Shown in pieces: positions 8,584-51,525 of a stretch of DNA of 64,000 bases. The stretch's first letter is position 1; the number at the start of each line of letters is the position of its first letter. The DNA comes from Schoenoplectus triqueter. Its lineage: Eukaryota; Streptophyta; Magnoliopsida; Poales; Cyperaceae. The translations under genes and the position numbers were made by a program. The stretch is taken from the NCBI GenBank assembly GCA_964058805.1, contig CAXKVV010000411.1, positions 1 through 64,000 of the forward strand, given 5' to 3'. Below the pieces are notes generated by a model. The model had not been told where the DNA came from, searched no databases, and was given only the letters and a program-made list of their open reading frames with translations.

Positions 8584-8665
8584 TGAACCTCAATTAATGG
8601 CAGTTCAGACCATGAGTCTCGATTAATGGCAACTCAGACCATGAGCCTCGATTAATGGCAGCTCA
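8584..8665 (-). repeat. Stem-loop family G: three 29-bp tandem units with co-varying arms
   Basis: Plus-strand arms are TGAAC/GTTCA (8584-8588 with 8603-8607), TGAGT/ACTCA (8613-8617 with 8632-8636) and TGAGC/GCTCA (8642-8646 with 8661-8665). The 14-nt loop is almost constant (CTCGATTAATGGCA). Two stem columns change as complementary pairs while the loop varies by one base. Confidence 0.8.
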
Positions 8666-22364: not shown

Positions 22365-22552
22365 TGTTTACCCTTAAAAAAATTTCAAGGATGAGTAGAT
22401 GAATAAATGAAATAAATTGATGATAAATCATAAGAAAGGGGGAGAAGAAAGAGAGCAGTGGAAAGGTGGCCCACTGATCAGGAAAGGCCGCTGCATAACC
22501 CCGGAACAAATCCATTAGTCCCACAATGGAATGCTGAGCGCAAAGTGAAGAG

Positions 22553-22637
22553 TATAAATACCCCGCTATTCTCTATCCACTCAGCATGTGTGACACCCAA
22601 GAAGATCGAGGGAGAGAGGAGACCTCTTGGGTGTCAC
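22553..22637 (+). promoter_or_regulatory. TATA box followed by a perfect 13-bp inverted repeat (module 1)
   Basis: TATAAATA at 22553-22560 is followed at 22590 by GTGACACCCAAGA, pairing perfectly with TCTTGGGTGTCAC at 22625-22637 around a purine-rich loop. An outer CATG/CATG extends the stem. After it comes TCTGACAAGTGGGAACC. Copy in the 3' LTR: 44451-44535. Confidence 0.65.
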
Positions 22638-22797
22638 CATGTGATTTTATCTTTTCTGACAAGTGGGAACCACATGGCAATCCCTTATGAGCAGCTCCAA
22701 TGACATGGACCTAGCCTATTTTGTTAAGAAAGCTAATTAACCCGGAACAGAGGTTAAGCATTAATCCCACAAGGAAATCCTAAATATGGAGCAAGGA

Positions 22798-22884
22798 TAT
22801 AAATACCCAGCCACCTTCTGCCCATTCGAAGTGGCTGACCCTCGGGAGATTTAGGAGAGAGAAAATCTCCTGATGGGTCAGCCA
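22798..22884 (+). promoter_or_regulatory. TATA box followed by a nested hairpin (module 2)
   Basis: TATAAATA lies 245 bp after that of module 1 (22798-22805). The arms are TGGCTGACCC/GGGTCAGCCA (22832-22841 with 22875-22884) enclosing GGAGATTT/AAATCTCC (22845-22852 with 22863-22870). Flanks match module 1 (GGAACA, TATAAATACCC, TCTGACAAGTGGGACCC), but the stem sequence differs and stays paired. Copy in the 3' LTR: 44696-44782. Confidence 0.65.
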
Positions 22885-23183
22885 TTTGATTATATTTTCT
22901 CTGACAAGTGGGACCCACCTGGCAGCCCCTTGTAGATGAACCTAATGGCACAGCCTATCTGATGAGTCATCCATATGACCATTTTCACTGACAGGTGGAC
23001 CCCACACCTCAGTGACCTATTGAAGAGGGTCAGAATTGAACCCTAGAAATCTGCCTTTGAAGCTAACCCTAGGAAGGAGCTGAAGCAGTATAATCCCTAT
23101 ACTACATGAAATGATGTCAATGCCAAGCTAGCATTTTGATGCAACTAATCATGAGAAATTCCAAATGTGATTTTGTTTTCAAG

Positions 23184-23386
23184 GCTGACCTGGTGCCAAA
23201 GCTGCGAGCAACCACCTAACCATGCTTTGATTTGTGTCAATTACTGATAAGTAGTCAGTTATTTGACCAAGTCACCCTCATGTTAAGGGATTGAAAGTCA
23301 ATTTCACAAGACTGATCAGGTGCCAAAGCTGGGAGCAACCATCTGATCAAGTCTAGATTTGTATTAATTGCTGATAAGTAGTCAGC
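23184..23386 (+). repeat. Duplicated stem-loop segment with phrase GGTGCCAAAGCTG
   Basis: Two copies about 127 bp apart. Each ends in a small hairpin with loop TAAGTAG: ACTGA/TCAGT (23243-23259) in copy 1 and GCTGA/TCAGC (23370-23386) in copy 2. Copy 2 also has a 10-bp stem TGATCAGGTG/CATCTGATCA (23313-23322 with 23340-23349) with one G.U pair; in copy 1 only the inner GGTG/CACC remains. Confidence 0.7.
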
Positions 23387-23402
23387 ATTTGATCAAATCA
23401 AG

Positions 23403-23446
23403 CCCTAATAAATATCAATATAAGTCTAATTGATATCTAGTTAGGG
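23403..23446 (+). other. Two-part inverted repeat
   Basis: CCCTAA/TTAGGG (23403-23408 with 23441-23446) encloses ATATCAAT/ATTGATAT (23412-23419 with 23429-23436). Function unknown. Confidence 0.6.
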
Positions 23447-23817
23447 TGGTTTCTGCAAGAGGGAGATAATTGGCAGAGACACAGAGCTACAATTGAGATC
23501 AGGGATTAATTCATAAGGAATAATAGGGTTTTATGAATAAAAGAATTTTTAATCCAGAGAAGGAAGGGTAAAAATGGAATTAAAAATTACAGGGATGATC
23601 ATCATGAATTTAGGGATTTTTGGTGAAATTTTCATGATTTTTGGATAAGTGGAGCTATCAGAATAAATTCAGGGAAGATAAAGGCAGAATAAATGGATTG
23701 ATCAAAGGCTGAGATTCAATCAAGGGTTCATCTGGGTGCAATCTGGGGACAGAGACACATCTGGGTACAAACTGGGGATCCTAAGCACACCTACACCGAA
23801 TCAGAGAAGAGAGAGGG

Positions 23818-24250
23818 TGTGACACGTGTCAGCATCTCATTGGGCCACCTCATGCCACGTGTCAGCACCCCATTGGTCCACTTCAGCCATGTGGGCCCCA
23901 CACCCCTGCAGACCTGACAAGTGGGCCCCACCTATGCCACATGGCAGTCAGCCATTGGTCCACATCAGCAGCCATCTCATTCAATAGCTGGACAAATGGC
24001 AGCATGCTATAAGGCCACCTCAACAGCCCATTGCCATGTGGCCTCCCCTTATTGGTCCACCTCACCACTGTGAATCTCACTATGCTATAAGGCGACTGAC
24101 AAGTGGGCCCCACTGGATGCCACATGGCATGCACTCACTGGTGCCATGTCATCATACAGTGTGTATAAGGAGAGACACATGGCTCCTTATAATTGGTACA
24201 GAGCAACACAAGGTGCCACATGGCACTATCTTACAGGGCCACATCACACA
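23818..24250 (+). promoter_or_regulatory. Cluster of G-box, CCAAT-like and GTGGGCCCC motifs
   Basis: CACGTG occurs at 23823-23828 and 23856-23861, each followed by TCAGCA and CATTGG. Motifs CATTGG(T/G)CCAC, ACAAGTGGGCCCCAC and TGCCACATGGCA recur through the cluster. These words bind bZIP/bHLH, NF-Y and TCP proteins in plants; their use here is inferred. Another CACGTG is at 24551-24556. The same cluster occurs in the 3' LTR from about 45716. Confidence 0.5.
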
Positions 24251-25135
24251 CAGGTTATTAACACTAAGGGTTTGTTTAATAAGCAACCAACCAATCAGGC
24301 AGAGCCACCTCAGCCTATTAACCCTAATCATTATACTAATCAACTGCTAATTAGATCTATAGGCGTATACTCACATAACCTTACAGGTGGGACCCTATTG
24401 TCAGGTTTATGAATCAGAGGCGCATAAGCCACTATGTGAACCAAACTCATTCGAATACAACTGGAATTTAAATAAAGGATAAAGAAAGGAAAGGTGTACC
24501 TGGCTCATGCGCATTATCCCCCTGGCTGTGGACCCCACTCTGTTGCGGTTCACGTGCGCCAAGGCCAACCCCTCCAGAGGCGCCTCCTTCTTCTCTTCTT
24601 CCTCTGCGTCTCTTTCTTCCGCGCGATTGATCGAAAGGCGCCATGGATGAATAAGCTAGAGATGGCGTAATAATTCAAATTCCTTCAATATAAAGATGCA
24701 GAACATTGATTAAAGCATGGAAAAGCTATGAATTTTGGAGATTACGAAAGGAACAAGGAAAATTAGTCTAAAACAGTTAGTAAGGTTGAAATTGGGATTG
24801 ACCTTTGCAAGTTCACAAATGTGAAATTGATTATGCAAGTAGCCTCCTTCCACTAAGGCGACACTCTCCAGATGCAAAGATAACACCTTGTGAAGCTTTA
24901 CAACAGTATTCCACCAAGTCAATAATCGGAGGAAGAACAGTGAGCTCAAACTTGACAATGGAGTACACCAGTAGTGCAAGAGACAGACCGGATCAATTAC
25001 TGGAGCTAAGAGGAAGCTGAAAAAGCTTGCAATTGAATGAATTGGTGAAAGAGTGATAGCAATGGTGATTGAGTGGAAAATCGGGCTTAAATGGAGAAAT
25101 AAGAAATTTAAACTGTGTAAAGGCTTTTATAGTAT

Positions 25136-25152
25136 CCAGAGGGACCCTCTGG
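25136..25152. other. Near-perfect palindrome CCAGAGGG-A-CCCTCTGG
   Basis: Eight-base arms separated by one A, about 290 bp upstream of the TATA candidate at 25428. Meaning unknown. Confidence 0.6.
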
Positions 25153-25388
25153 TGATTGCCAAGTATAGAGAAAGTTCTAGAATGATCCAGAAATGAGTGA
25201 AGGCCGGTTAAGTCAAGAGAGTGGCAAGAGGGTAAATATGAAAATGTGTGTAACTAACTCAAACGGCCTAGCTGCCAAAGGCCAACTCAATTGAGTGATT
25301 AGAAAGCACAGTAGCATCCCAGCCATTGATCTAAGCCGAACCAAGGGTGAAGATTGAATAAAAAACCGTAATCCAAGTGCTAATCTTC

Positions 25389-25502
25389 TAACCAATCACC
25401 ATTTAGCAAATTTCATACCTTTTAGCCTATATAAACTCACAGAATCAGATAGATAGAGGAGCTCTGGAAAATCTAGCAATTGAGAGAGAGAGAGAGAGAG
25501 AT
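25389..25502 (+). promoter_or_regulatory. Candidate core promoter: CCAAT, TATA box and GA repeat
   Basis: ACCAATCACC near 25390 is followed by CCTATATAAAC (TATATAAA 25428-25435) and a (GA)n run at about 25484-25502. The TATA context resembles CCTATATAAG in the LTR of the pol-less element, so this is my preferred start region. It would leave an R-U5 part of about 4 kb that includes all stem-loop arrays. Copy in the 3' LTR: TATA at 47326-47333. Confidence 0.5.
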
Positions 25503-26699
25503 ATAGTAACAAGAGAAAGGAAGAAAGGGTGAAAATCATCTCCAAGGCCGAAATTGAAATCAATTGATAGTAGAGCAAGCCTAGCTCTCTCAATTCGATT
25601 GAAATTTAGCAATCTTGGTGCATTCTCAGTTGAACAAGGTAAATGTAAAATGAGAATTTCAATTGTTGCAATTATGTAAGCCGATTTAGCCATTTCTATT
25701 GGAATTTTCATTTGCATTTGATTTCTCTTGAATTCTTTATTAATTCTTGATTTATGATCTTCAGTCTTGCTCTTTTCAAACCCAATTTATAATATAAATC
25801 ACTATGGCTATATGAATAAGATCAGAAAATTCAGCTCAAACATTCAAATTTTGAGTTTAAACCCATTTTCCAGTCTTTTTACTTTGTTCTTCTCTAAGCA
25901 AAGGATCTGAAGGCACAAGATTGGTAGTAGGTCTCTTGTAGGCCTCCCATTCTCCATTTGATCGGTGAATTAGACAAATTGGTAGAAGGATTTCCGTCCT
26001 CTCAATTCTGTCGATCTGACAATCAGTGAAATTCAAACCGATACCATTGTATTGAAGTTGAATTGATAACTTGAACATGGTGATGTAACAGTATCACATA
26101 TGCGGAAGAAGAAGCATCACCAAAATCAAGCATCAATTGAAAGGAATTTGACTGTTTGAGTTGAATCGCGCGGTACCAGTATATAACGAGACCAATTACT
26201 CAAAGAAGATTGGAATTAAAGCAAAATTGAATAAATAATCCGGTATAACATCAATTAACAAAGATTAATCTGAAAGATTTTACTAGAATCAATCGGCAAT
26301 TTGATCAAAATAAGCAATCAAAGCAATCGGTACCGAATTATGAACTGTACCGAAACGGTACTGGGTTATGTAGCAATCTGACCGATGGATCTCGAATCAA
26401 AGATCAAGATCATACTCCTCCGAGTAGGGCGATGCTAGGGGTAGTGGCCGATCATCGATCAAGAGCTCCGATCACCAGAAGCGCGGTAGCACGCATCTCA
26501 GTGAAGTGATCGGCAGAGGGGATGAAGAGAAGCCCCTGCGCGAGATTTGATGCGCAGATACGGATCTTAGTGAATCTCAAAGAAATCCAACGTCTCCCGT
26601 GAATCGACCGTTAAAAGGAATAATAATGAGTGGATCTAAATCGTTCATCTACTAGGAACTAATCTTAAAACATATCGGACGATTCAAATAAGAGTAAAG

Positions 26700-27956
26700 A
26701 TATATGAAAGATATGCACTAATCTCAATATAGATCCAACGGCCCAGATTAGGCCCAGTAATCAAATAATAGCAAAATATTAATAATATAGGATAAATGAA
26801 TGATTTGAAAATGCTATTAAACTCCAAATTGACTCAAATTTGTTTCTAAAATTTTCTTATTTTTCATACTATTTTTCTATACAATAATATTCCAGTTTTA
26901 GAAATATAATCATGATAAAACAATTTAAAAGCAAAAAACATTACCTATATTGATATGTTTGACCTAATTTTGACTTGTCATTTTAAATACTATAAAAAAT
27001 TCCAAAAATACAAATAAAAATCATAAATAATAACTAGATATATTTTACTGATTTTTCAAGTGATTTTCCATGAAATAATAATGGTGATAATAATATACCA
27101 TAATAAATAATGAGAGTAGCTATATTCTTTGATAAATATAAAAAAAAATATATAAAAAAAAATATGAATAACAATAAATATTATATTGATATCTTTCTGT
27201 AAAAAGAATAATAAAAGTAAATAGCACAAAATATACAAAATATATTACTATGGTAATAAATAGTAAAATACATTTTCTTTTATGATAAAAAAAAAATGAT
27301 AATATAGTTTTATAATATGAATTATATTTCTTTTGTTACTCCCATGCAAATATACAATAAAAATACTTTTGATGAATAAACTGTAATAAAAATAATAGTT
27401 GTAATAAAAACATAATGAATTTCATCTCTTATGGTTATTTTCAACTAATAATAAAAAATCTTATACTTTTCCATAGATAATAAATAGAAATAATAAAAAT
27501 AATGAATAGTATAATAAATAGGATAGAATATTAGTAATGATTTCTTTTAGCTATCATAAATAATAATAATAAAAAAAAATATAAAAAAAAAAATAATAAT
27601 AATAAAATAGTATAGCTAACCACCTTTTAATTTTGTAAATGATTCTTACATAATGAATAGTATTTTAAATATAATAGAATATAATAATAAAATTCTATTA
27701 CTTTAGCTATTATAAACATTTTAAAAATACAAATAAAAAAATATAGCCATTTTATTTTCTATTACTTTTGTAAGTGATTTTCTATAGAATACATAGAGTT
27801 TAGAAGTAATGAAAATAAAATTCTACTATTTTAGCTATTATAAAATCCCAAAAATATAAATAAAGTTCTAAGTTAATAGCTACCCATTTTCTATTATTTT
27901 TGTAAATAGTTTTCTACATAGATAAATAGCATTCAAAAATAATAATAATAGTAATA

Positions 27957-28002
<46 letters not shown>

Positions 28003-28080
28003 TAATAAATAAATGCATCTTGATAATAGAGATAATAATAGAAGATATTATATGGGCTTTGTATATTTTTGAGATGAATA
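26700..28080. other. Very AT-rich LTR interior with TAA microsatellite
   Basis: Long A and TAA/AAT-rich tracts and a pure (TAA)n stretch at about 27941-28010. The A-run near 27590 is one base longer than in the 3' LTR. No gene is seen. Confidence 0.75.
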
Positions 28081-28142
28081 AAAAATGCTCACACAAGGAG
28101 TGTAGAGTCACATGAGAATATTTGCACAACATTTAGAAAGAT

Positions 28143-28564
28143 ATGTCGAGACAAGAACATCTTGACATTTGATGAATAATAATAAAATACGTTGAGACAA
28201 GAACATCTCGACGTGAGAAGATTAAGGCTTCGATAGCAATATGAAGAAGATGCGTTGAGACAAGAACATCTTGACGTTTGAAGATTAAGGCTTCGATAGC
28301 GACCTGAGAAGATACATCGAGACAAGAACATCTTGATGTTTGATGAAGAATAACCAGAGCTACGATACTAACATGAAGATATACGTCGACTCTGAAGAAG
28401 AAGAACATTATGATGTCCTAGAGAGGTGACATCTTAATGACTCGCTGCCATGAGCAAGTAACTCATGATTGAATACGCTCACACAAGGGGTGTAGGGCTA
28501 CATAGTAATTTTGCACAAGTAATGCAACACGTAGAATGATTAGTCGAGACAAGAACATCTTGGC
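28143..28564 (+). repeat. Stem-loop family A: five hairpins with constant loop ACAAGAACAT
   Basis: Arms: ATGTCGAG/CTTGACAT (28143-28168), ACGTTGAG/CTCGACGT (28189-28214), GCGTTGAG/CTTGACGT (28252-28277), ACATCGAG/CTTGATGT (28314-28339), GTCGAG/CTTGGC (28543-28564). The 10-base loop is identical in all five. Outer pairs switch between T-A and C-G and between G-C and A-T. All imperfect pairs are G.U on this strand. Copy in the 3' LTR: 50040-50461. Confidence 0.8.
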
Positions 28565-28696
28565 GTTCGTTGAAGATTGACCAAAGCTACGACATCAGCA
28601 TGGAGAGATATGTCGACTTTGAAGATGAAGAACGTTACGATGTCCTAGCGAAGTGACATCTTAATGACTCGGTGTCATGAACAAGTAATTCATGAC
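28449..28696 (+). other. Stem-loop family D: two hairpins with loop CAAGTAA
   Basis: CATGAG/CTCATG at 28449-28467 and GTCATGAA/TTCATGAC at 28674-28696 share loop CAAGTAA. The closing pair is G-C in one and A-T in the other. Confidence 0.7.
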
Positions 28697-28711
28697 CATT
28701 TGAGCTGGCAA

Positions 28712-29306
28712 GACTGAACTCGTCCGTCGATGAGTTTATCTCCTGGCTCATTTCCCGAGAATGTGAGATTGAATCGGTCTGTTGGTAGATTCATCCACAA
28801 AACAGTGAATGTGAACCGTTCTGTAGGTAGGTTCCTTCACTAACACATGCCTCAATGTTGAACTGGCCCAGCGCTTCAGGTTTGACATTGTGTGCAATTG
28901 TGTTTCCTAGGTTTATGAATCGGCTTAGTGCTTCGAATTCATGATCTAGAAGATCGGTGAGAAGAAATACGTGGGCCATAGCCACCCTTCTCCTGATTCA
29001 CCAACCTCAAGATCAACCGGCTCAGTGCTTCGAGTTGTATTTTGTGTGATTGGTTGTTGACTAGTTAAGATTGAACCGGTCTGTTTGTAGGTTTATCTTC
29101 TAGATCAACGGAGGTCGAGTCGGTCTGTATGTAGACTCACCTCAAGCCCCCTATGAAGAGATTAACCTGGTCTGTTGGTAAGGTTACATCTCGAGGTGGC
29201 ATGGACTGAACCGGTCTGTTTGTAGGTTCGTCCCCCATAAGACAAAACCGATCTGTTTGTAGGTTTGTCTTCCATAGATTGAACCGGTCTGTTGGTAGGT
29301 TCATCT
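28712..29306 (+). repeat. Stem-loop family B: nine hairpins, conserved 12-nt loop GGTCTGTTGGTA, co-varying two-part stems
   Basis: Hairpins at 28712-28740 (divergent), 28767-28795, 28804-28841, 29067-29099, 29111-29143, 29158-29192, 29203-29233, 29239-29271 and 29276-29306. Most have a 5-bp inner stem, one unpaired base and an outer stem of 3-5 bp. Inner arms include GAATC/GATTC, GAGTC/GACTC, TAACC/GGTTA, AAACC/GGTTT and GAACC/GGTTC. Outer arms include GAGGT/ACCTC, GAGAT/ATCTC, GGAC/GTCC, AAGAC/GTCTT and AAGAT/ATCTT. The loop is almost invariant. Copy in the 3' LTR ends at 51203. Confidence 0.85.
28853..29037 (+). repeat. Stem-loop family C in the giant element: three hairpins
   Basis: 28853-28890 pairs CAATGT/ACATTG and continues inward with A-T, C-G and G.U pairs. 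28915-28942 pairs ATGAAT/ATTCAT. 29014-29037 pairs only CAAC/GTTG. Loops read about CGGCTCAGTGCTTCGA and match the family C loop of the pol-less element. Confidence 0.7.
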
Positions 29307-29425
29307 TCCGTAGATCCATTTTTATAAACTTAGACGACCACTTGCCCATCTCTTAACTATACTATTTGCTTCTCTCTTTCAAAGATCCAGAGGTGCCTCG
29401 AGGTTCGTAGCCCAGGGTAATTAAC

Positions 29426-29445
29426 GGTGGGGGCTTGCGCCCACC
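29426..29445 (+). other. Conserved U5 hairpin (5' LTR copy)
   Basis: GGTGGG/CCCACC around GGCTTGCG, preceded by AGCCCAGGGTAATTAAC. The counterpart in the pol-less element (8423-8442) has AATGGG/CCCATT with the same loop. The 3' LTR copy is at 51323-51342. Confidence 0.75.
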
Positions 29446-29623
29446 GGAATCTACAAGAACTCACAATCACTAAAAACCCCCTGAATGTGCATCCAAATAA
29501 TCTCTAAACGGCAGAATCGGCCGACACCCATCAGATGCACGCTCGGGAGGGATCTCCGTGTCCTTCTTCCGCAGAACCCATCGCCCGGCGGCGGTGCGGC
29601 GGCGCGCGAAAAAGGGTCGCACA

Positions 29624-29763
29624 GGATCTGGCACGCCCGGTGGGACCTAGATTCTCCTCTTATCTCTGAAAGAGAGAGGCAAATAGAATACTTAAGAGAT
29701 ACAAGTGGTCTTCTATGTGCTAAAATGACTAATAATTTTCAAGTGTTTTTGTTTTTGCAGGAA
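29624..29763 (+). other. Leader between 5' LTR and gag, with acceptor-like end
   Basis: It begins GGATC and the primer binding site. A branch-point-like GACTAAT lies about 30 bases before a T-rich tract ending TTGCAG at 29760, three bases before the gag ATG. The pol-less element has an equivalent T-rich TAG before its gag. A spliced 5' leader is possible; no donor was identified. Confidence 0.6.
29629..29647 (+). other. tRNA primer binding site
   Basis: TGGCACGCCCGGTGGGACC starts five bases after the LTR end and is identical to the site of the pol-less element. It primes minus-strand DNA synthesis; tRNA-Arg is the likely but unchecked primer. Confidence 0.88.
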
Positions 29764-32700
29764 ATGGCATTCTTCGGAAACTTCAACCTTGCTCCCTACA
29801 CCGTCACTCCTGCTCAGAGCCCAGAGGGCAAACTATTCATGTTCTTCGGGACCATCCCGCAAGAACTTACTATCTACGGCCCAGCTCCAGTGGCCACGAT
29901 TACTCCTGCGACCGTCCGGATCTCCATTCCGGACGAGGAGGAAGAATCGATCACCCTAACTCCCAAGGAGATCTCCAACAACGTAATGGCCTCTCCTACT
30001 GCCTCCCCAAAGAGGAGAAGGCGACCGTCCAAGAGGACAGCTCCAAAGGTCGCAGCCCAAACTGCCCGTAACTCTCAAGCATCCAGGAAGAGGGCCCTGG
30101 ATGCATACCAGAACCAGCTGGTGGCTAGGCCAGCTATCCCAGTCTCCAACAAATTTACAGCTCTCCGAATAGTGGCCAAGAACTCGGCCACGGGCCAGCT
30201 CCGCCAGGCATGGGAGGTGCCTAAGCCCACACCTCGCCCAACTCAAAGGCCTCAGCGCCGCCAGGACAAACCCCAAACCCCTGCAGAAGCCATCTACAAG
30301 GCTCACAGGGCCCTCAAACAGAGGAGAAGCGTTAAAAACGCTAGGTCGAGACAGTACGTCTCCCGCCCTAACCAATCTCAAGGCTTGGCTCAGCCGCGAG
30401 TCATTGCCTCCACTCCGAACACAAGGAGGTCTATACCAAAGGCAACACCTAGCATCCAGCAGGTGTGGGTCCCGAAGGGTTCCCAGCCAACAAAGCCCCA
30501 ATCTCAAACCCAGCCCAGTAAGGCCGGCAGGTCCAACGCTCCGTCCGAGAGCGTGTTCAGCCGCTTGGGTCAGAAGAGTGTATTCAGCCGATTAGGCTCG
30601 AGAATACCACTCAATAGTCTAAAAATAACTGCCCCTGATCAAGCAAAGAAGAAGAGAAGAACCGCTCGTTACGAAGAGCACTTCTCGGTCAACACCATCA
30701 GTATAAGCTACGATACTGATCCAGACACTGATGGTGAGGTGAATATGGTCCAGGATGACCAGTCCCCGCCTAATCAAGCTCACGTCACCAATACCAATAA
30801 GAATAATGGTAGAAAAGGGAGACCACCCAAGAGAGTCAACCCCGAAGGCAACAGCAGGGAAGAGGAAGACCACAACGAAAACCCTGACTTCTTTGATAAT
30901 GAAGATGACGTTGAAACACGTCCCGAAGTGCCTATCGATGAAATTGAAATACTAAAAGGCCACATCGAGGCACGGGATGAAGAGCTGATTAGGCAACGGG
31001 AGCTAATCGCTACCATGCTGAAGCAGAATGAAGAATTGATTAAGGCGGTCAAATCGTTACAAGAATCACAAGACGCCAATTTCAAAGCTGGTAGCTCCCG
31101 TCAAGAAGGGGTCCACAGTACCAAAAGCAATCATAAGGGAAAACAACCTGTCGATTCTAAACCCCATCCACATAGAACCATAGAAGTGGAGGCTGAACCA
31201 ACGGGAATATCCCGGAAGGAGATTCAAGCCATGATTGCCCAGCAAATGCAAATAGCTGGAGGTGGATACGCTATCCCTCCTGTCAAAAACTGTGGACATC
31301 CATACCCTGCCATATACGATTTAGAAGAATATCCTAAAGGGTATGTGATCCCCCGCTTCAGGACCTTCTCAGGGGAGGGCAATAAAGACCTGAACCCCGA
31401 ACAACACCTAGCCCATTTCGTAGCCTCGTGCGGCAACACGGGCGGCAATGATGCACTGTTGTTAAGACAATTCCCTCAGAGCTTGGTGGGAACCGCCTTT
31501 CAATGGTACTATTCGCTGGAAAACAACAGCATCAGGACCTGGGACGAGATGGCGGACTCGTTCAGGGCACGTTTTGTCATGGTGTCTGACAAGATAAACA
31601 TAGCCGATCTGGCAAGCACTAAACCCAAGAAAGGGGAGTCAATGACAGATTTTATCAATAGATGGCGGAACCTCAGCATCAAATGCGACCGCACATTAAC
31701 CGAAGATGAGGCCGTCAACCTAATCATGAAGAACATTGACGGGTGGATGGGCATGCTTCTTGGTGTGACAAAGGTCAACACGTTTAAAGACTTGCTCAGA
31801 TCGGTATCCAATATGGAAAGGATGTCACCACACACCGTGCCGAACTTCATGAATAATAGGCCGCAACGAGGAGCCCGAGCTGAAACCAAAGTGGCATTCA
31901 CCTCGTTAAAGGATAAGATGGTTGCCAATGCAGACACCCAAGGCGGCAGTAGTAGCATAAATGGCAACAATTATAATAAGGGACCCAGGCCCAACCCAGG
32001 AGGGAGTTCACGGAGTTTTGAATCCCTTAAACAAAAGAAATCTAGACCATACTCCTTCAGAAAAGATAAAGTTGCCCAAATCTTCAGAGGGGCACTGAAG
32101 AATGGCCTAACCCTGCCGGCCAGTAAACGCCCGGAAGATGCCGATAAATCGGACGAACCCAACTTCTGCCCATACCACAGAATAATAGGGCACTCAATCG
32201 AAGATTGCTGGGTCTTCAAAGATTGGGTCGAGAAGGCGTATAAAAACGGTGAAATTACTTTACCTAAGGGGTTCTTGCAAAGCCCATCAGCCCATGAGCA
32301 GGCCAACACGATCTCTCATGAGGAAGAGAAAGTCCCGGGCCAGTCATGCGAAGACCAGGAAGAACAATGGACTACGCACCTATCGAAGAAATCAATTAAA
32401 ATGCTTAAAGCCCTTAAGAAAGAACCTGGCATGAAATGGAAAGACGATATCACACCAGTGGTCCCACCAAAACCCAGGGTATACTATAAGGTGGACCAGA
32501 GCCAAGACCAGGTTCTTAAGAAGAAAAAGAAGCATAGAAACAACAAATCCAGAAAGAATAAAATTGAAGAATATGAGCAGGGCAGTCCCGAGGTGATCAC
32601 CCTTCAACATTTCATCTCCAAAGAAGATTGGGAGAAGCTAACCCTAGGTCAAAAGAAGGAAAATGTGAATGAAGAAATAAATAAAGAAGAAAGCGAAGAG

Positions 32701-35700
32701 ATCTGGGGTGCTTCGTGCAATATGGTATATTCTTCTCACGACGAAGATATGCCAACATTAGAGGAGATGTTCTTCCCGAATGATGAAGGAGAAGCAAGCA
32801 CCTCTGGGACCAAAAATGAAGAATGTAAAGCCGTGCTCCGGTCCGGGACTTATATACCCGAGAGACAGGCTCCCAAGGATTCCGATAAAGGGAAGGACAA
32901 GGTCCAGAATAAAGGTAAAGAGGTCGAGAATCCAAGCAAGAACCCAGAAAGGACCCGGTCGACGGGCGAAGAATATAATGTGTTGGCACATCTGCGTAAG
33001 ATTCCAGCGCTATTAAGCATATTTGATGCGTTGATGATGTCACAAGACCTAAGGGAGGTACTAATCCAGGCCTTGCAAGATCCCGAGAAGTACAAGTCAT
33101 ACTTTGTCGAGCAAAATATGCAAGAAGCCCTATTCACCGCCAAACGGGCCGCCTGTATAAATTTCACAGACGATGACCTCCTAATAGGCACCGTCGACCA
33201 TAACCGCCCGCTATACATCACCGGAAACTGCGGAGGGCAAAAGATTGGCCGCATCTTGGTCGACGCAGGGTCTTCGATCAATATTATGCCGCTCAAAACC
33301 CTAAAGACCATCACCTTAGATGTGAAGAACCTATCTGATGAAAAGGTGATTATTCATGGCTTTAATCAAAACTCCCAAAAGGCCCTGGGAGCTATAACCC
33401 TAAACCTGCAATGCGGAAGCTTAAAGGCGCCTACTAAATTCTATGTTATTGACGCTGAAACCTCTTATCGGGCGTTGCTGGGTCGCCCGTGGCTTCACAG
33501 CAATCAGGTCATACCCTCTACTCTGCACCAGTGCCTGAAATATATTGAGAATGGTAAGCAAAAGAGAATTGACGGAGATGTCAAGCCATTCGGGGTGCAT
33601 GAGATTAAGTTCAATGACGCCCAGTATTTTCTGCCTAAATCCGCTGTGGCGCCGAGCCGGCCAATGACAAAAGCGGGTCAGAAACCCTTTAACAAAGGCC
33701 CTAAATTTGATACTTCATCTGGAGAAGAAGAAGAGGTCAAATTTAACATTAAACCCCGAGGCGCTCGAGCCCAAAGACCCGGAAGAAAGTCGGGTGAAGA
33801 AGCAACCTTCCGCTTCAAACAGGTGGCTGCGTATAAGGCCCAAATAAAACCGAGCGAAATCAATGCAAGTGATTCTGAAGAGGAGGTCATTTTCAATTTT
33901 AGGCCTGCCAACACCCCTCAAATTCAGATCATAGAGGCAACTTCAGGAGAAGACTCCGAAGATTCTAACAACTCGGGCGATACCACCTCGGGAGAAGAAT
34001 CTGGCCATGATCGTCAACCCTGGGAAGAGGAGTCTGACGAAGAGATCATCTATCACATCCTCAAGAAGCCATATAAAGGGCCCGAAACAGATAATGAAAG
34101 CGAGGAGTCATTTATGATCAACGCGGGACCCGGTAGCGGAAGGGATAACCCGGTTAGGCCAAGGCCTATAAATGAAGAACGCTCATGGCGGGAAAATTTC
34201 GAAGGTCGCGTCTGGAATACGATCGACGAAATAAGGCACCAAGTTGAAAATAATAGAAGAGAGGTGTCTGAACAATGGGAAGTGATGCAGGATATCAAGA
34301 CGCAACACAATGAAATCATGGTAATGATTGAAAACCTGCAAACCGCGATTTATAACTCCGAGCTACTCAAGGAGGTGACGAGCGAACCCCGTTCCGGGAC
34401 CCCCGAAAGACAAGCACCCGATAGCGGCAAACGGGTAATTGTAATAGTAGATGAATCAAAGGGGGAAGAAACGAAAGCTAAACAACCGACCGTCATGCAA
34501 ACTCTTAAGGTCAAGAAGAGTAAACCATACTCTTTTCTGAGAAATAAAACAGCTCGGATATTTGAACAGGCCCTAAAGAATGGATTAACACTTCCCGTAT
34601 GTAAGAGACCCGCTGACATAGAAAGAGCCGGTGAAGGCGAATTCTGCCCTTATCATCGCATATTGGGTCATACTATTGAAGAGTGTTGGGTATTCAAAGA
34701 CCTAATAGAAGAAGGGCATAGAGACGGGACAATCCAACTCCCGAAGAGCTTTCAACAAGACCCAGCTCCGCATAACTTGAATAACAAAGGCAAAGGGGTG
34801 GCTTATACGATCTCGCACACTCCCGTACCTAGTAAACCTAAGGCTGCGAGACGTAAGCCGATCAAAGAAATCTACCGCTCCAACTCAGTCATGAACATTG
34901 AAATAGAAGAAGAGATGGCAGCGCTGGAGATTACTGTGGTTCCCGAAAGGCATTTTAAAGACCTTATACCAAGGGAGGTGAACCACATCCAAACCCTAAA
35001 GACCTTTGTTGTGCCGGCAAAGGTAGAGCGCCTCAAAGGGAAAACTATCATCCATAAGGCTATAATTTTCTATCAGAGTGATTCGACCCAGTCTCTGAAG
35101 AATCCTGATCACAACACTTGGAAGAAGTGGGTGATAGAACAAGAGTCAGAGAATGCAACGAGCGGTGACGTTGCATCTCATCCCTTTGGAAAGGAGCTAT
35201 ATAAATTGGCAAAAAGGGCAAAATGTCTGAGAGACATATCCAAGGCCGAGGCCAAGCGCTTCGATGAACTCTGGAATGGCGGCCAGAATAAAGTCCTAGG
35301 CCTGGATGGCAAAATAAAATATACCCGGGGGCTAGGGTATGACTGCGATGATGCAGCATGTTTTGAAGGGTCTCTCAACGAGTACCGTATGAAAGAGAGC
35401 TGTTGTATGACTTCTGTTGAGATGCCGGACAATGAAACAGAAGAGGACAATGCCCCGGTCCTGAAAAATGCTTTGAAACAGCTAGAAAAGGAGCCTAATA
35501 CGGTCGATGAGTTAGCTGAAATCAATCTGGGGACGGAAGAAGATCCACGACCAACTTTCATAAGCGCGTCATTGCCAGAAGAAGTGGCTGACAGGTTGAA
35601 GACATTCCTTAGAAGCTATATGGACTGCTTCGCTTGGAGTTATAAAGAAATGCCTGGATTAGATCCCAACGTGGCGGTCCATTATTTGAAAATTGATCCA

Positions 35701-38700
35701 ACCTTCAAGCCGATTAAACAAGCGCCGAGGCGGATGAGAATAGAGCTCGAAGAAAAGGTCGTGGAAGAGACAAAGAAACTCATCGACGCCGGCTTTATAC
35801 GGGAAGAAGAGACGCCAGAATGGGTGGCTAGCATTGTCCCGGTTAAAAAGAAAAATGGGCAAATCCGCATTTGCGTGGACTTTCGGGACTTGAATAAGGC
35901 GTGCCCTAAAGATGATTTCCCGCTCCCAGTAACTGAAATTATAATTGACCATACATCCTCCTATGAAGTCTTCTCCTTCATGGACGGTTATGCGGGCTAC
36001 AATCAAATTAAAATGGCGCCAGAAGATGAGAGGCATACGGCATTCCGCACGCCGATTGGCATATATTGTTACAAAGTCATGCCGTTTGGGCTCAAAAATG
36101 CGGGAGCCACCTACCAACGGGCGATGACGAAAATATTCGATGATCTGATCCACAAGATAGTCGAGTGCTATGTGGACGACCTAGTCATCAAGGCCATGTC
36201 ATATGAAGAACACCTCCAATATCTTGAGGTCGTTTTCAACCGCCTGAGAGAACATGCACTCAAATTAAACCCGTTGAAATGCGCATTCATGGTATCATCT
36301 GGTAAATTTCTGGGATTTGTAGTACGCCATAGGGGAATTGAGATAGACCCGGGCAAGATCAAAGCAATAACTGAACTATCCCCGCCAAAGAATTTAAAAC
36401 AATTGCGATCCTTGCAAGGGCAATTGGCGTACATTAGGCGGTTTATAGCCAACCTATCGGGTAAAATCCAACCCTTCACCCGGCTGACTAAGAAGAACAT
36501 CCCGTTTAAGTGGGATGGCGAGTGCCAGCGAGCCTTTGAAGAAATCAAGGCATATCTACTCAACCCTCCAGTGTTGGCGGCGCCCATACCCGGGAAGGAG
36601 CTCATTCTATACACGACCGCCCTAGATGGATCCTTGGGAGCCCTGTTGGCACAAGAAAACCAGGATGGAAATCAAAATGCGCTATATTATCTAAGTCGCA
36701 TGATGGTAGGGGCAGAACACGGGTATTCACCGATCGAGAAGCATTGCCTAGCCCTAATCTTCGCGGTGAAGAAATTGAGGCATTATATGTTAGCCCACAA
36801 AATCATTTTAATATCCAAGGTGGACCCTCTCAAGTATCTGATGACTCGGCCAATGCTGACGGGGAGGCTGGCCAAGTGGGCTATCATCCTCACTGAATTC
36901 GACATCACCTATACACCGCAAAAGGCGATCAAGGGGCAGGCGCTAGCAGATTTCTTGGCTGCACACCCGATTCAAGATGACTCCCCATTAAAATGTGACT
37001 TTCCTGACGAGGAAACTCTACATGTTGAAGAAGGAGACCCTATATGGGAGATGTACTTTGATGGTGCTTCTTCAATCAAGCCAATCGCGGGCCCGGGAGT
37101 CCCAACTGTGCGAGCTGGCGCAGGACTAGTCTTCGTAACCCCGGAGGGCGGGATAATACGACATTCTCTAGCTTTAACTGAACCATGTACAAATAACGAA
37201 GCAGAGTATGAGGCACTCATCGCCGGACTAGAGCTTTCATTGGAGCTGGAAATCAAGGCTATGCGTATCTTTGGGGATTCACAGCTGATAATAAATCAGA
37301 TAATTGGCGAATACAAGGTCTTAAAGCCGGAACTAATACAATATCACCAGAAGGCCATGGAACTAATGAAGAAAATCCCGTACGTGTCCATCGAGAAGGT
37401 CACAAGGGCCGTGAATGGTGAAGCAGATGCGCTGGCCAAACTCGCCAAGGAGCTGGGTGAACCAACAGAACCGGAAATCCACATCATCGTCCGCAATAGG
37501 AGACCATTATCATTGTGTCAAATAACAGATGATGCGATTAATGAAAATGCCGGGCTAGAAAAGATGGAATGCCAAGAAGCAATGATAACTGAAGACGATG
37601 ATTGGAGACAGCCATTCATTGAATATTTCCGGCATGGCACCCTCCCTAAAGATAAAAGGATAGCTGATCAACTAAGAAAGCGGGTACTACGGTATGCATA
37701 TGTGGGCAATACGCTATACCGTAGATCTTATGATCAGTTATGGCTAAGATGTGTATCAGGGCCTGAAGCCGGACAGGTTATGAAAGAAGTTCATTCCGGG
37801 CTATGCGGAGCACATCAGTCTGGGCCAAAAATGAAGTTGAAAATTAAGCGAATGGGATATTATTGGCCCACGATGGTGGCTGATTGTGAAGAACATGCAA
37901 AGAAGTGCCGCATGTGCCAGATACACGGCCCTTTTATACATCAAGCGCCAAACCCGTTGCACCCCACGGTAGCATCTTGGCCATTTAATATGTGGGGCAC
38001 AGACATAGTGGGGCCCATAGACCCTCCGACGTCGAGAGGTCACCGGTTCATCCTGGCGGCGACAGATTACTTTACAAAATGGGCCGAAGCCGTTCCGCTT
38101 AAAGAAGTTAAAGCATCCGATGTGGTTAAGTTCTTCAAGACGCACATCCTCTACCGATTTGGTACCCCACAACGGATAATATCCGATAACGGGACAGCCT
38201 TCAAGAGCTCCAAAGTCTATGCCCTGGCGGAGCAATTCAATATTGACTGGAGATTCTCGTCCATTTATAACCCGAGAGCCAATGGCCTGGCCGAAGCCTT
38301 TAACAAAACCCTAATCAATATCATGAAGAAGACTGTGGACGGCAACCAACGAGACTGGGATAATCGTCTACAGGAGGCATTATGGGCTTATCGGACCACA
38401 TACCGAACGCCTACGCAAGCTACCCCGTATTCTTTGGCTTTTGGGGTTGAAGCCGTCCTCCCTCTTGAGGTAGAATTACCGTCATTGCGGGTGGCTATGC
38501 AAAACGATATGACCATGGACGAATGCCAACAACTTAGACTGGACGAATTGGATGCCATGGACGAGAAGAGGCTAATAGCCCAGCAGAACCTTGAGATATA
38601 TCAGGCAAAAATGGCGAGGGCATATGACAAAATGGCGCGAGTTAGGGCATTTCAACAAGGGGAGCTGGTTCTTGTCCTTAAGAGGCCGATCATTGGCCGG

Positions 38701-38850
38701 CACATCGGCCCAAAATTCTCTCCGAACTGGGAAGGGCCATATGTAATTGAGAAGGTATACGAGGGCGGCGCATACCAACTCATAGATCATGAAGGTGAGA
38801 GGCCCATGCCACCGATTAATGGGCGATATCTGAAGAAGTACTACACATAG
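29764..38850 (+). CDS. gag-pol: Gag-pro-pol polyprotein of the giant Ogre/Tat-like element, intact
   Basis: 3028 codons without a stop or frameshift. I chose the Met at 29764 because the pol-less element starts at the matching place; the frame is open back to 29485, but that part lies in the LTR and primer site. Order: basic disordered N-terminus with FFGTIPQE, coiled coil (about 393-436), gag core (about 520-690), zinc-knuckle-like C802-X2-H-X4-H-X4-C815, protease with DAGSS (D1167), acidic motif repeats, second zinc-knuckle module (C1628), GLGY motif, RT (about 1995-2190, YVDD 2136-2139), RNase H (about 2280-2400), archaeal-type RNase H (YFDGAS, D2433), integrase with HHCC finger (from H2677), D2747, D2808, E2844 (D-X35-E) and a GPY motif (G2991). 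Dual RNase H is a Tat-lineage mark. All catalytic residues I can check are present. Gag, protease and pol in one frame imply processing by the element's protease. Confidence 0.95.
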   Translation: MAFFGNFNLAPYTVTPAQSPEGKLFMFFGTIPQELTIYGPAPVATITPATVRISIPDEEEESITLTPKEISNNVMASPTASPKRRRRPSKRTAPKVAAQTARNSQASRKRALDAYQNQLVARPAIPVSNKFTALRIVAKNSATGQLRQAWEVPKPTPRPTQRPQRRQDKPQTPAEAIYKAHRALKQRRSVKNARSRQYVSRPNQSQGLAQPRVIASTPNTRRSIPKATPSIQQVWVPKGSQPTKPQSQTQPSKAGRSNAPSESVFSRLGQKSVFSRLGSRIPLNSLKITAPDQAKKKRRTARYEEHFSVNTISISYDTDPDTDGEVNMVQDDQSPPNQAHVTNTNKNNGRKGRPPKRVNPEGNSREEEDHNENPDFFDNEDDVETRPEVPIDEIEILKGHIEARDEELIRQRELIATMLKQNEELIKAVKSLQESQDANFKAGSSRQEGVHSTKSNHKGKQPVDSKPHPHRTIEVEAEPTGISRKEIQAMIAQQMQIAGGGYAIPPVKNCGHPYPAIYDLEEYPKGYVIPRFRTFSGEGNKDLNPEQHLAHFVASCGNTGGNDALLLRQFPQSLVGTAFQWYYSLENNSIRTWDEMADSFRARFVMVSDKINIADLASTKPKKGESMTDFINRWRNLSIKCDRTLTEDEAVNLIMKNIDGWMGMLLGVTKVNTFKDLLRSVSNMERMSPHTVPNFMNNRPQRGARAETKVAFTSLKDKMVANADTQGGSSSINGNNYNKGPRPNPGGSSRSFESLKQKKSRPYSFRKDKVAQIFRGALKNGLTLPASKRPEDADKSDEPNFCPYHRIIGHSIEDCWVFKDWVEKAYKNGEITLPKGFLQSPSAHEQANTISHEEEKVPGQSCEDQEEQWTTHLSKKSIKMLKALKKEPGMKWKDDITPVVPPKPRVYYKVDQSQDQVLKKKKKHRNNKSRKNKIEEYEQGSPEVITLQHFISKEDWEKLTLGQKKENVNEEINKEESEEIWGASCNMVYSSHDEDMPTLEEMFFPNDEGEASTSGTKNEECKAVLRSGTYIPERQAPKDSDKGKDKVQNKGKEVENPSKNPERTRSTGEEYNVLAHLRKIPALLSIFDALMMSQDLREVLIQALQDPEKYKSYFVEQNMQEALFTAKRAACINFTDDDLLIGTVDHNRPLYITGNCGGQKIGRILVDAGSSINIMPLKTLKTITLDVKNLSDEKVIIHGFNQNSQKALGAITLNLQCGSLKAPTKFYVIDAETSYRALLGRPWLHSNQVIPSTLHQCLKYIENGKQKRIDGDVKPFGVHEIKFNDAQYFLPKSAVAPSRPMTKAGQKPFNKGPKFDTSSGEEEEVKFNIKPRGARAQRPGRKSGEEATFRFKQVAAYKAQIKPSEINASDSEEEVIFNFRPANTPQIQIIEATSGEDSEDSNNSGDTTSGEESGHDRQPWEEESDEEIIYHILKKPYKGPETDNESEESFMINAGPGSGRDNPVRPRPINEERSWRENFEGRVWNTIDEIRHQVENNRREVSEQWEVMQDIKTQHNEIMVMIENLQTAIYNSELLKEVTSEPRSGTPERQAPDSGKRVIVIVDESKGEETKAKQPTVMQTLKVKKSKPYSFLRNKTARIFEQALKNGLTLPVCKRPADIERAGEGEFCPYHRILGHTIEECWVFKDLIEEGHRDGTIQLPKSFQQDPAPHNLNNKGKGVAYTISHTPVPSKPKAARRKPIKEIYRSNSVMNIEIEEEMAALEITVVPERHFKDLIPREVNHIQTLKTFVVPAKVERLKGKTIIHKAIIFYQSDSTQSLKNPDHNTWKKWVIEQESENATSGDVASHPFGKELYKLAKRAKCLRDISKAEAKRFDELWNGGQNKVLGLDGKIKYTRGLGYDCDDAACFEGSLNEYRMKESCCMTSVEMPDNETEEDNAPVLKNALKQLEKEPNTVDELAEINLGTEEDPRPTFISASLPEEVADRLKTFLRSYMDCFAWSYKEMPGLDPNVAVHYLKIDPTFKPIKQAPRRMRIELEEKVVEETKKLIDAGFIREEETPEWVASIVPVKKKNGQIRICVDFRDLNKACPKDDFPLPVTEIIIDHTSSYEVFSFMDGYAGYNQIKMAPEDERHTAFRTPIGIYCYKVMPFGLKNAGATYQRAMTKIFDDLIHKIVECYVDDLVIKAMSYEEHLQYLEVVFNRLREHALKLNPLKCAFMVSSGKFLGFVVRHRGIEIDPGKIKAITELSPPKNLKQLRSLQGQLAYIRRFIANLSGKIQPFTRLTKKNIPFKWDGECQRAFEEIKAYLLNPPVLAAPIPGKELILYTTALDGSLGALLAQENQDGNQNALYYLSRMMVGAEHGYSPIEKHCLALIFAVKKLRHYMLAHKIILISKVDPLKYLMTRPMLTGRLAKWAIILTEFDITYTPQKAIKGQALADFLAAHPIQDDSPLKCDFPDEETLHVEEGDPIWEMYFDGASSIKPIAGPGVPTVRAGAGLVFVTPEGGIIRHSLALTEPCTNNEAEYEALIAGLELSLELEIKAMRIFGDSQLIINQIIGEYKVLKPELIQYHQKAMELMKKIPYVSIEKVTRAVNGEADALAKLAKELGEPTEPEIHIIVRNRRPLSLCQITDDAINENAGLEKMECQEAMITEDDDWRQPFIEYFRHGTLPKDKRIADQLRKRVLRYAYVGNTLYRRSYDQLWLRCVSGPEAGQVMKEVHSGLCGAHQSGPKMKLKIKRMGYYWPTMVADCEEHAKKCRMCQIHGPFIHQAPNPLHPTVASWPFNMWGTDIVGPIDPPTSRGHRFILAATDYFTKWAEAVPLKEVKASDVVKFFKTHILYRFGTPQRIISDNGTAFKSSKVYALAEQFNIDWRFSSIYNPRANGLAEAFNKTLINIMKKTVDGNQRDWDNRLQEALWAYRTTYRTPTQATPYSLAFGVEAVLPLEVELPSLRVAMQNDMTMDECQQLRLDELDAMDEKRLIAQQNLEIYQAKMARAYDKMARVRAFQQGELVLVLKRPIIGRHIGPKFSPNWEGPYVIEKVYEGGAYQLIDHEGERPMPPINGRYLKKYYT

Positions 38851-40584: not shown

Positions 40585-43500
40585 CTATGGGCCCAAAAAG
40601 CGGGACTCCAACTCTAATAACACAGTGCTAATAGTCTCTAAATGAGTATGGAGGGAGTGCCTATCCTCCTCCGAGGCTGCCTCGAAGTCCAGGAACTGAG
40701 AGAAAGCACTATCTCGGGCACTCGAATGAATCTGCAGCTCCGGGAGACGTCCCGCCAGATGTCGAGAGAAGCCCTCTACTAATAATCTATGGTCCTCTAG
40801 CTCCTGCACGAGCAGTCGAGCGGGCCCACCACTGACTCCCATGGAGCGGAGAGTGGCACAAGAAGAAAGCCGCTGAAGATAATAGAGTCGAGCAGCCTCC
40901 AAATGCCTACGCAGCTCATGAATCTCTAACTCGTGCTGATATACAAGAGAGCTCGCATCCTGGTAAGCCCTGAGCAGCTCCTCACACCTCCTGGAAATAA
41001 AAGTGCTCTCGAGACGAGGTGCAATGAGTAGAGCTGGCGCGATGGTATCCCGCATCAGCCTATACCAATCGAAGGAGAAGCCACTGGGCAGAGAATCCAG
41101 GATCTCGAAATCTAGCGGATAGCCCCCGAAGAAGGTATCTCGGAGTGCATCCGCCAGCGCGGCCAAGGCGAGCTGCACATCCCTCGATGAAACATCTGCA
41201 AGTAAAATAAATGGGTTAGACAAATTGTTATAACCAAAGAAGAAATAGAAGGAAGAGAAGATCTAACCTATCGCCTCGTCGCCTGAGACAGGCGGGACTG
41301 AGTCAGGGATAGGGATGTCGGTCGCCTCAGGAGGACCCGTAGGTGTACCAGACCCGGCTACAAAATAAAATAAAAGCATAAGTACATGAAAAGTAAAAAT
41401 ACGGGCAAATGACAGAAGGAAATATAAGATACCGGGAGAAGCATGAGGCTCGGCGAGACCCTCGCTAGCCGGAACCCCTGTCTCTGGGCTGTGGAATAGC
41501 TGCTCCACCAGCCAGCTCTCATCCAACTCTGAGTCGTAGTCGACTGCAACCCGCTCAGTCGAGACTCTGTCATCTGTGGCCATGAGAGGCTGCACGTTGG
41601 GAGATGAAGAAGTATGAGATGGCCCTCCCTCGATCAATAAAGGCTCGTCGCCTGCGGGCTCGACAGCCAATGGACTCCCCTGCTCTAAAGAAGCCTCCTC
41701 TGGTAGTGCAAGAGTGAGCACTGGCCCCAGAATCACATCGAATGAGTCACCATCTCCAGTGGGTACCAGCAAAATCGACGGTGAAGCAGGACCGTCATGG
41801 AAGAAAGGCTCCGAGCGGTGAGGAGACGCCATGTCATCGGCCTCAGGGTCTGTAAAATTTACATGTAAGAATGAAAATACTAGTGCATACTGACAACTAG
41901 GTATTAAATGAAGCACACGAACCTGCGACGGCAAGGTCGGTGCAAAACCCTGGAATAGCAGTGCTCGCAGGCGCTGATAGATCTGCTACGATGTCATCCT
42001 GAGTTGCCTCTACAGGAGATGTCCCGCGAGCTGAAAAATAAACCCTAATCAGAGGTGTGAATGAAATGCGCCCAAGTAAAGATAGGCGAGTCAGTAAAGA
42101 AAATCACCCGGAGTGGGAGAAGGTAAAGAAGATGGAGAAGACGGCTGAGAGGCGCTGTCTCGATCTCTCCCTGTGGTAGCTGGAGCCGATGGCTCGACAT
42201 GTGGCTGAGAATGAACGCCAACTACTCGTGGACGAGGGACCGAGAACCCGGGCCCCGCATGATCATACTCATAAGCCAGCTCTGAATCAAAAGAGAATTG
42301 GTCGAAGTGAGACGAGGCTTATTAAAAAGAAATAACCTAAAAGGGATAATGAAGTGTACCTGTAAGAGTAGTCCTAACAGGAGCACGAGAAAACCGGCTG
42401 TCTAAACCCTGGAAATCAATAGGCTCTACAGTGATGTCTGGGAAAAGAGAGCGGCCATATGAGATATCTCCACTAGAAAGGACATGTCCGTCACGAGGGC
42501 AAGTGACACGTGCAACTACAGGAGGAGTGTATGACTGGTAAGAGCGGATGGCATCATGATACCACTGCTGATAACGTCTCGAGAAAGTGGGAACTCGAGA
42601 AGTAGAAACCATCTGGCAACGAACACCGGTACCTAGTCGGAAGAGGTGAGTATAACACCACCCGACACCCTCCAAGTCAGCTGCCAAAAACTCAGGACGA
42701 AGAAGAGGCGCTGGGATATCCTGATCTAGCCCAAACTGATGTGCACACCGATGAGGTGAATAGGGCTCAATGAATATGTGATCACCCGATCTAAAAGGAA
42801 GGAAACCCTGGCGGATGCTAACAAGGTACTCCAAGTCAGTCAGTCTATCCCGAATGCTAGAAGGGTCAGAAGAAGGAACCCTACTATCAACCACTGACCG
42901 CTCCACGGTCCTGGCTATCCTGCGAGTCATCCGTCTATCTCGAGCGAACCTCAGATGATCACGACTCCTATAAAATCTGTATCTGGCATCTGCGGGAGTC
43001 AAAGAAGTGGGCTGCACTCCGGCTAAATCGCCCAACAGAGGTAAATGGTCTCTCAATGAAGCAGCCATACCAGGATCATAAGAACCTGACCAATGCATAT
43101 GAAGCCAGCCGCTAACCAAATGCCATGGAATCAGCTCCCTACATCTCGAAGGACTACGAGATGATACTAGACCGCGGAGACCCCTGTAAATGTTGGCCAA
43201 TACAGGCACTGATAAGGAAATCCTGCTGCCGCGCGCAATCAAACTCGCCATGACAAATACAGAAGGCCGGATGGTGTATGCAGGGGAGCTGGGTAATAGA
43301 AAGTAACAGATCCACCAGGAAATGAATGCGGTCAGATAAGTCTCCCGATCTATATCGTGAGAGCACAATGCATCCTGAGAAGGGGCAGGGCCGTCGTAGT
43401 GAATCTCGAGACGACCTGTACCAAAAGGATCCCGAATAGAGGCTAAGCCCTCGGGACGAGTATGAACTCGATCTGTGAAATAGGCAATCCAATGCCTGAA

Positions 43501-44238: not shown

Positions 44239-44246
44239 GGCTCGTC

Positions 44247-44262
44247 TTGGTGGGTGGCTCTT
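44247..44262 (+). other. 3' LTR junction motif in the polypurine-tract position
   Basis: TTGGTGGGTGGCTCTT ends at the first base before the 3' LTR, whose start is fixed by the satellite junction of the 5' LTR. The same 16 bases occur in the pol-less element (806-821). Confidence 0.75.
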
Positions 44263-49853: not shown

Positions 49854-49899
<46 letters not shown>

Positions 49900-51520: not shown

Positions 51521-51525
51521 CAGAA
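51521..51525. repeat. Target-site duplication CAGAA, right copy
   Basis: It follows the LTR end TCGCACA and continues directly into satellite (TATTAATATTG). Confidence 0.97.

Follow-up and report, generated by a model that had tools for sequence, protein, structure and literature searches.

Element A and its setting

The window, that is, the whole 64,000-nucleotide stretch of DNA analysed here, contains an LTR retrotransposon on the + strand, referred to as element A, which is embedded in a satellite of about 182 bp. Its 5' LTR (22365-29623, + strand, 7259 bp) and 3' LTR (44263-51520, + strand) are flanked by the target-site duplication CAGAA, and they differ by 4 mismatches and 2 gap columns over 7258 aligned columns. 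A single open frame at 29485-38850 (3121 aa) encodes gag, RT, RNase H, a second RNase H and integrase. In the polyprotein, CPYHRIIGHSIEDC-like stretches by eye resemble zinc knuckles. The conserved stretch that follows the 5' LTR (29624-29647, + strand) was taken, from its genome matches, as the primer-binding site (PBS) region; it recurs at 280 genome sites at no more than 3 mismatches, and its reversed pattern at none. The left part of the window holds element B, a diverged relative of A on the - strand. In the satellite at 51522-64000, self-matches recur every 1819 bases, as a higher-order repeat of ten units would produce.

The second RNase H (aRH) lies between RNase H and integrase: an RT_RNaseH match stands at the end of the piece 35002-36801, and the piece 36802-38847 matches RVT_3 at residues 103-215 and rve at residues 394-491. 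Such an order is described as a feature of the Ogre/Retand branch in the available text of PMC6317226, and element A is therefore placed in this branch of the Tat clade. The interval from pol to the 3' LTR holds three frames antisense to gag-pol (in 40585-44265), an arrangement shared with Retand elements, and the one at 42340-44265 (- strand) carries PF10536, the plant mobile domain, which is given for 57% of Ogre elements (PMC6317226, PMC11963269, as far as available). However, a scan of the three antisense frames (225-642 aa) gave no TRP28, a domain usual in Retand, which the layout otherwise resembles. Since it was absent from these frames we file element A as Tat rather than as Retand, although TRP28, reported in 97% of Retand clusters (PMC11963269, in part), is common and not universal. 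Its single frame for gag and pol and the antisense frames downstream of pol make element A look unlike a typical Ogre. The eight closest RT relatives (protein matches P0001-P0008) are 87-98% identical and all come from JGI metagenome contigs, so the samples behind these contigs contain DNA of the same or a near plant.

Stem-loops in the LTR

The first-pass annotation had described nine two-part stem-loops in the LTR whose arms change together, and all nine are present in the 5' LTR, with inner stems of 5 bp and outer stems of 4-5 bp. The window has exactly two occurrences of each string, because the 3' LTR holds another copy of the whole array, with its loops at 50673-51194. On the + strand they are H0 (inner portion 28711-28741; 28702-28749 with a third outer stem part), H1 (28765-28797, loop GGTCTGTTGGTA), H2 (28805-28840, GTTCTGTAGGTA), H7 (29067-29099, GGTCTGTTTGTA), H8 (29111-29143, GGTCTGTATGTA), H9 (29158-29192, GGTCTGTTGGTA), H10 (29202-29234, GGTCTGTTTGTA), H11 (29239-29271, GATCTGTTTGTA) and H12 (29275-29307, GGTCTGTTGGTA). 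Changes on both sides among relatives are clearest in H9. Watson-Crick pairs account for 43 of the 45 inner pairs (the other 2 are G.U) and for 39 of the 44 outer pairs. Of the 362880 ways to permute the 3' arms among the nine, 48 gave pairing as good as that of the own arms for the inner stems and 12 did so for the outer stems. An unpaired base between the two stem parts, which most copies were said to keep, does lie on the 5' side in seven of the nine by the division into inner and outer stems used here, with an adjoining C.A pair in the first one; H2 has three unpaired bases, and H9 has none on the 5' side and one on the 3' side.

The loop had been described as a fixed 12-mer, and this holds in part: GGTCTGTTGGTA is exact in 3 of the 9 and altered at one or two of positions 2, 8 and 9 in 5, but the loop of H0 is unrelated. 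At no more than 2 mismatches the loop has 19 matches in the window against 2.99 expected, 16 of them inside the two LTR arrays. A simple hairpin finder returned 5 hairpins in 28412-29015 and 3 in 29016-29619, where shuffled sequences gave means of 1.8 and 1.4 (maximum 3 for both), and an excess over shuffles was also seen in some other stretches of element A. Rfam at the gathering cut-off (4227 families, including self-cleaving ribozymes) gave no match in the window, and ARAGORN gave no tRNA. Two likenesses of the loop were considered and dropped: a tRNA D-arm, whose pairing does not fit, and a PUF-type site, for UGUA is absent from GGTCTGTTGGTA. Kissing loops were likewise set aside, as no palindrome common to the loops was found by eye.

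The array is larger than first described, and hairpins with other loops stand before, between and after the nine, all on the + strand. HB (28674-28696) reads GTCATGAA-CAAGTAA-TTCATGAC. A second loop class is represented by H3 (28853-28890, GGCCCAGCGCTTC), H4 (28907-28949, GGCTTAGTGCTTC, with a CTAG...CTAG stem and counterparts in the families B, C and D) and H6 (29008-29044, GGCTCAGTGCTTC), and H5 (28952-28998) has the outer stem GATC...GATT. Three more precede the PBS: P1 (29425-29446), which is CGGTGGG/CCCACCG in A, CAATGGG/CCCATTG in B and CAGTGAG/CTCACTG in C; P2 (29477-29551), with the core GTGCATC/GATGCAC; and P3 (29579-29596, CATCGCC/GGCGGTG), which pairs poorly in the alignment used. 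Upstream of the array, a repeat of about 225 bases (28406-28480 and 28633-28704) contains more hairpins, including CATGAG/CTCATG and GTCATGAA/TTCATGAC, that by eye differ on both sides.

Related families in the same genome

We searched the genome assembly (82 Mb, 2086 contigs) for these signals. The exact loop matched 471 times and its reversed pattern 4 times; a shorter loop variant matched 858 sites (reversed pattern 18), 100 of which were inspected, and a signature from hairpin H6 matched 600 sites (reversed pattern 0). Searches with one pattern each in viral contigs and in prokaryote genome contigs gave no relatives. Related Tat families in the genome have corresponding hairpins whose stems are re-written yet paired, and families besides A show the same layout with other loops. 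The relatives were sampled through PBS, loop or array queries only, mostly as the first places listed, so that the sample consists of families with these signals.

In the LTR of element B, three stem-loops of a third loop class (8584-8665, - strand) have the loop GCCATTAATCGA flanked by TGAGC/GCTCA, TGAGT/ACTCA or TGAAC/GTTCA. This hairpin occurs at 75 genome sites, its reversed pattern at none, and by eye the five pairs are all Watson-Crick at 64 of the sites, include G.U at 5 and a mismatch at 6. Among the copies looked at, A and D have one CTAG...CTAG hairpin each, B has two and C has four, and their stems are paired but differ in sequence. Seven second-class hairpins, hand-picked from 21 forms that include hairpins of other kinds, paired better with their own arms than with exchanged ones (2 of 20000 exchanges were as good), and the own arm was the single best partner in only 4 of the 7. 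Of the 149 distinct flanked loops in the loci sampled up to that stage, 133 form no fewer than 4 of the 5 inner pairs. In the 48 flank sets to which 117 flank pairs collapse, non-hairpins included, own arms beat all 20000 exchanges, the own arm being the single best partner in only 15 of the 48.

Retention of pairing among relatives

For the tree-based tests we used 72 of 86 distinct stretches from 128 regions, the omitted 14 being second matches from an upstream repeat of the anchor. The proposed stems (113 pairs) were derived from one of the sequences, and in the null, changes equal in number and kind to those observed fall independently on the tree. Of the cells, 0.9874 (113 pairs by 72 sequences) was paired against 0.881 in the null, a value that none of 300 runs reached, and 14 pairs had changed on both sides against 8.6 (reached by 4 of 300 runs). 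The number of cells with both-side changes was not above this null (56 of 300 runs reach it). With slid partners, 0.35-0.47 of the cells were paired and 2-6 pairs had changed on both sides. One pair of H0 is C.A in 12 of the 72 sequences. The folding energy z-score was -4.87 for the array and +1.30 for another LTR stretch (20 shuffles each).

Pairing retention and both-side pairs among the relatives thus exceed the tree-aware null, but all-pairs covariation scans do not add to this. The scan and the null are our own scripts after the idea of R-scape and not R-scape proper. At the array the scan gave nothing significant (best E 8.75, 72 sequences), and the stems are little changed among the copies at hand. 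Near the PBS, in an alignment of 60 distinct of 81 sequences, the best E was 0.12, for a pair outside the proposed set. When only the 21 listed pairs there were counted, two P1 pairs reached E of 0.008 and 0.036, and several P2 and P3 pairs showed mismatches or no covariation.

Plain tandem duplication followed by decay, with complementarity arising by chance, has in its favour that hairpin units are duplicated in some families, but pairing is better than such decay predicts, as the first-pass annotation had argued: both the arm-exchange and the tree-aware tests oppose this reading, and we regard it as extremely improbable.

The distribution of changes over the tree points the same way as these tests. 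Stem changes are depleted on internal branches relative to other columns (46:118 v 104:137, p 0.0023) and also relative to loops (p 0.033), while loops show no such depletion relative to spacers (p 0.53). Parsimony changes per column were 0.204 for stems, 0.462 for loops and 0.627 for other columns on internal branches, and 0.522, 0.705 and 0.825, respectively, on the tips. Similarly, among 46 close copies (of 53 distinct sequences, those at least 93.5% identical to one of them), shared variants per site were fewest in stems (0.048), with 0.131 for loops and 0.160 for the remaining columns. Watson-Crick pairs on tip branches gave 39 changes to G.U and 40 broken pairs, compared with 17 and 5 on internal branches (Fisher p 0.028), so that broken pairs make up 40 of 79 changes on the tips and 5 of 22 on internal branches. 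The changes on tip branches should be mostly decay after insertion.

These results support the view that base pairing has been kept by selection, and the level of action is probably RNA. The idea of an RNA element under selection therefore stands as far as the pairing goes, on the tree null, the internal against the tip branches and the excess of G.U over A.C given below, but not as to an invariant loop. That the loop hardly changes was overstated, because between relatives loops vary nearly as fast as spacers, and other families have other loops. Since the loops drift in this way, the recognised part, if there is one, would be a sub-motif (e.g. TCTGT..GTA) or the stem end and not a fixed 12-mer.

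Strand and course of the changes

On the sense strand, G.U and A.C products stood at 56:27 (p 0.0019 against 1:1), and against background transitions the excess of G.U was weaker (Fisher p 0.046). This excess weakly indicates sense RNA. The 75 third-class sites, by eye, showed no excess of G.U (5 G.U vs 4 A.C), and folding energy does not tell the strands apart (z -4.87 sense, -4.68 minus).

A process at the DNA level, or during reverse transcription, that re-templates one arm from the other without selection would yield both-side changes and, during reverse transcription, would do so in the replicating lineage only. However, only 4 changes from one Watson-Crick pair to another altered both sides of the pair on one and the same branch (a tip in 3 cases, an internal branch in 1), whereas single steps to G.U numbered 56 (tip 39, internal 17), and several pairs show the full series of steps, e.g. 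CG/TG/TA and GC/GT/AT. Moreover, the loop was found 728 times in one orientation and never inverted, a count that includes overlapping loci and is thus non-independent. Stepwise change through G.U and the lack of inverted loops argue against re-templating of arms, which we consider very unlikely. The pattern fits selection on sense RNA better than it fits either tandem decay or arm re-templating.

Position in the leader

A TATA-like box lies at 25426-25442 (+ strand), and a similar box is present in element B. Transcription would start about 30 bp downstream of it. The array is 3.3-3.9 kb downstream of the box and 0.3-0.9 kb upstream of the PBS; with the box some 3.3 kb upstream, the array would belong to the 5' leader. 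The TATA stretch of A (25423-25446) occurs in only 16 genome places, as compared with 600 for the array signature, and promoters have therefore seemingly turned over while the array stayed.

The hairpins could instead belong to the 3' part of an intron in the leader and, through a host protein, govern whether the RNA is spliced, retained or exported unspliced. At 29353-29390 (+ strand), a branch-point, pyrimidine-tract and CAG motif resembles a 3' splice site; by eye, both A and B have it after the array, and C has a looser form. After the TATA box of A there is also a strong 5' splice-site match, a 9-mer at 25636 that scores 10.6 with a hand-written matrix. Against this, the best 5' site of B within 1.1 kb of its TATA box scores only 7.6, none there being comparably strong, the joined presumed exons match 0 genome stretches at no more than 3 mismatches, and the TATA stretch of A is as rare as stated above. 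We therefore hold control by a leader intron to be unlikely.

Comparison with known systems

One close likeness is the palindrome-rich LTR cis-region of the maize Sireviruses (Ty1/copia), where structured repeats are also clustered inside a plant LTR (PMC10760457, in the text available). There, one palindrome sequence is repeated, whereas here the element is of the Ty3 type (Tat) and its loop motifs are shared by stems that vary. By eye, the array has no repeated Sirevirus palindrome CACCGGACNNNGTCCGGTG; its stems vary and its loops are longer than 3. The same source lends some weight to a role in DNA or silencing, with cis-regulatory repeats that fold and feed small-RNA production, for in Sirevirus LTRs palindromic motifs are clustered, the predicted structure is strong and small RNAs are in excess (PMC10760457, in part). 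But the palindrome described there is a single sequence, and here the stems stay paired although their letters differ; if such a site were read as duplex DNA, one would expect fixed arms; and the array stands kilobases downstream of the TATA-like box, at the distance given above. We regard such a role as quite doubtful.

Dispersed packaging signals of the MS2 type consist of many stem-loops that have a common recognition motif while the rest varies (PMC6281560, as far as available), and the array has this feature too. They differ in being spread over the genome and bound by coat protein, whereas the array is a cluster in an LTR for which protein binding would be a prediction (PMC6281560, likewise in part). 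Retroviral leader packaging structures also comprise several stem-loops near the PBS, but element A has a repeated array with three loop classes.

Neither hairpin nor secondary structure is a term used in the main text of a Retand survey from 2025 (PMC11963269), and the literature searched, whose coverage was limited and included few subscription papers, gave no description of Tat LTRs with arrays of covarying hairpins. One fixed palindrome clustered in Sirevirus LTRs is known; a Tat LTR in which the stems differ and a loop motif is shared seems to be a new form of such clusters. Maize Ty3 elements are said to be generally without such a palindrome peak (PMC10760457, in the text available). 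The array suggests that plant Ty3-type elements can have LTR structure that a search for a single palindrome would not see.

Possible role of the array

That the stems change their letters yet stay paired suggests that the folded RNA itself serves the element, perhaps by marking the RNA for packaging. In our judgement the array is probably a selected sense-RNA structure of some role. The fuller reading, in which sense-RNA stem-loops in the LTR transcript keep their pairing by selection during replication and act in multivalent docking, most likely of Gag and for packaging, we would put a little short of an even chance. According to it, the hairpins would keep their pairing while the element replicates, and each would present its loop on a stem whose letters are free; because of this, the row could form a multivalent docking platform. 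The likeliest partner would be the element's own Gag, which would pick the genomic RNA for packaging, in analogy to the dispersed packaging signals of small RNA viruses. Binding of Gag or packaging, taken as the role on its own, is a tentative assignment that might well be right but that we do not favour outright.

The selection of genomic RNA for packaging by plant LTR retrotransposons is little known. A December 2025 review on host factors discusses packaging, and the terms stem-loop, hairpin and secondary structure are absent from its main text as available (PMC12786077). A repeated RNA structure with evolutionary support, found at about 600 genome places by one signature, is a concrete candidate. 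More broadly, Tat elements might carry a multivalent RNA address code of drifting stems and lineage-specific loops (GNTCTGT..GTA; GGCYYAGYGCTTC; GCCATTAATCGA), each matched to its own Gag or host factor. We think this somewhat unlikely; if it were true, related elements would sort their RNA genomes within one nucleus.

Two minor observations concern the sampled relatives. The LTR end together with the PBS forms tandem repeats of 2-4 units, spaced about 146 bases apart, in the loci L001, L009, L041, L043, L055, L064, L075 and L088, and 136 bases apart in L067. In the locus L108, on the reverse strand, a hairpin ATATTGAC..GTCAATAT with the loop GTTCTGTAGTA lies amid short repeats, apparently outside an LTR array.
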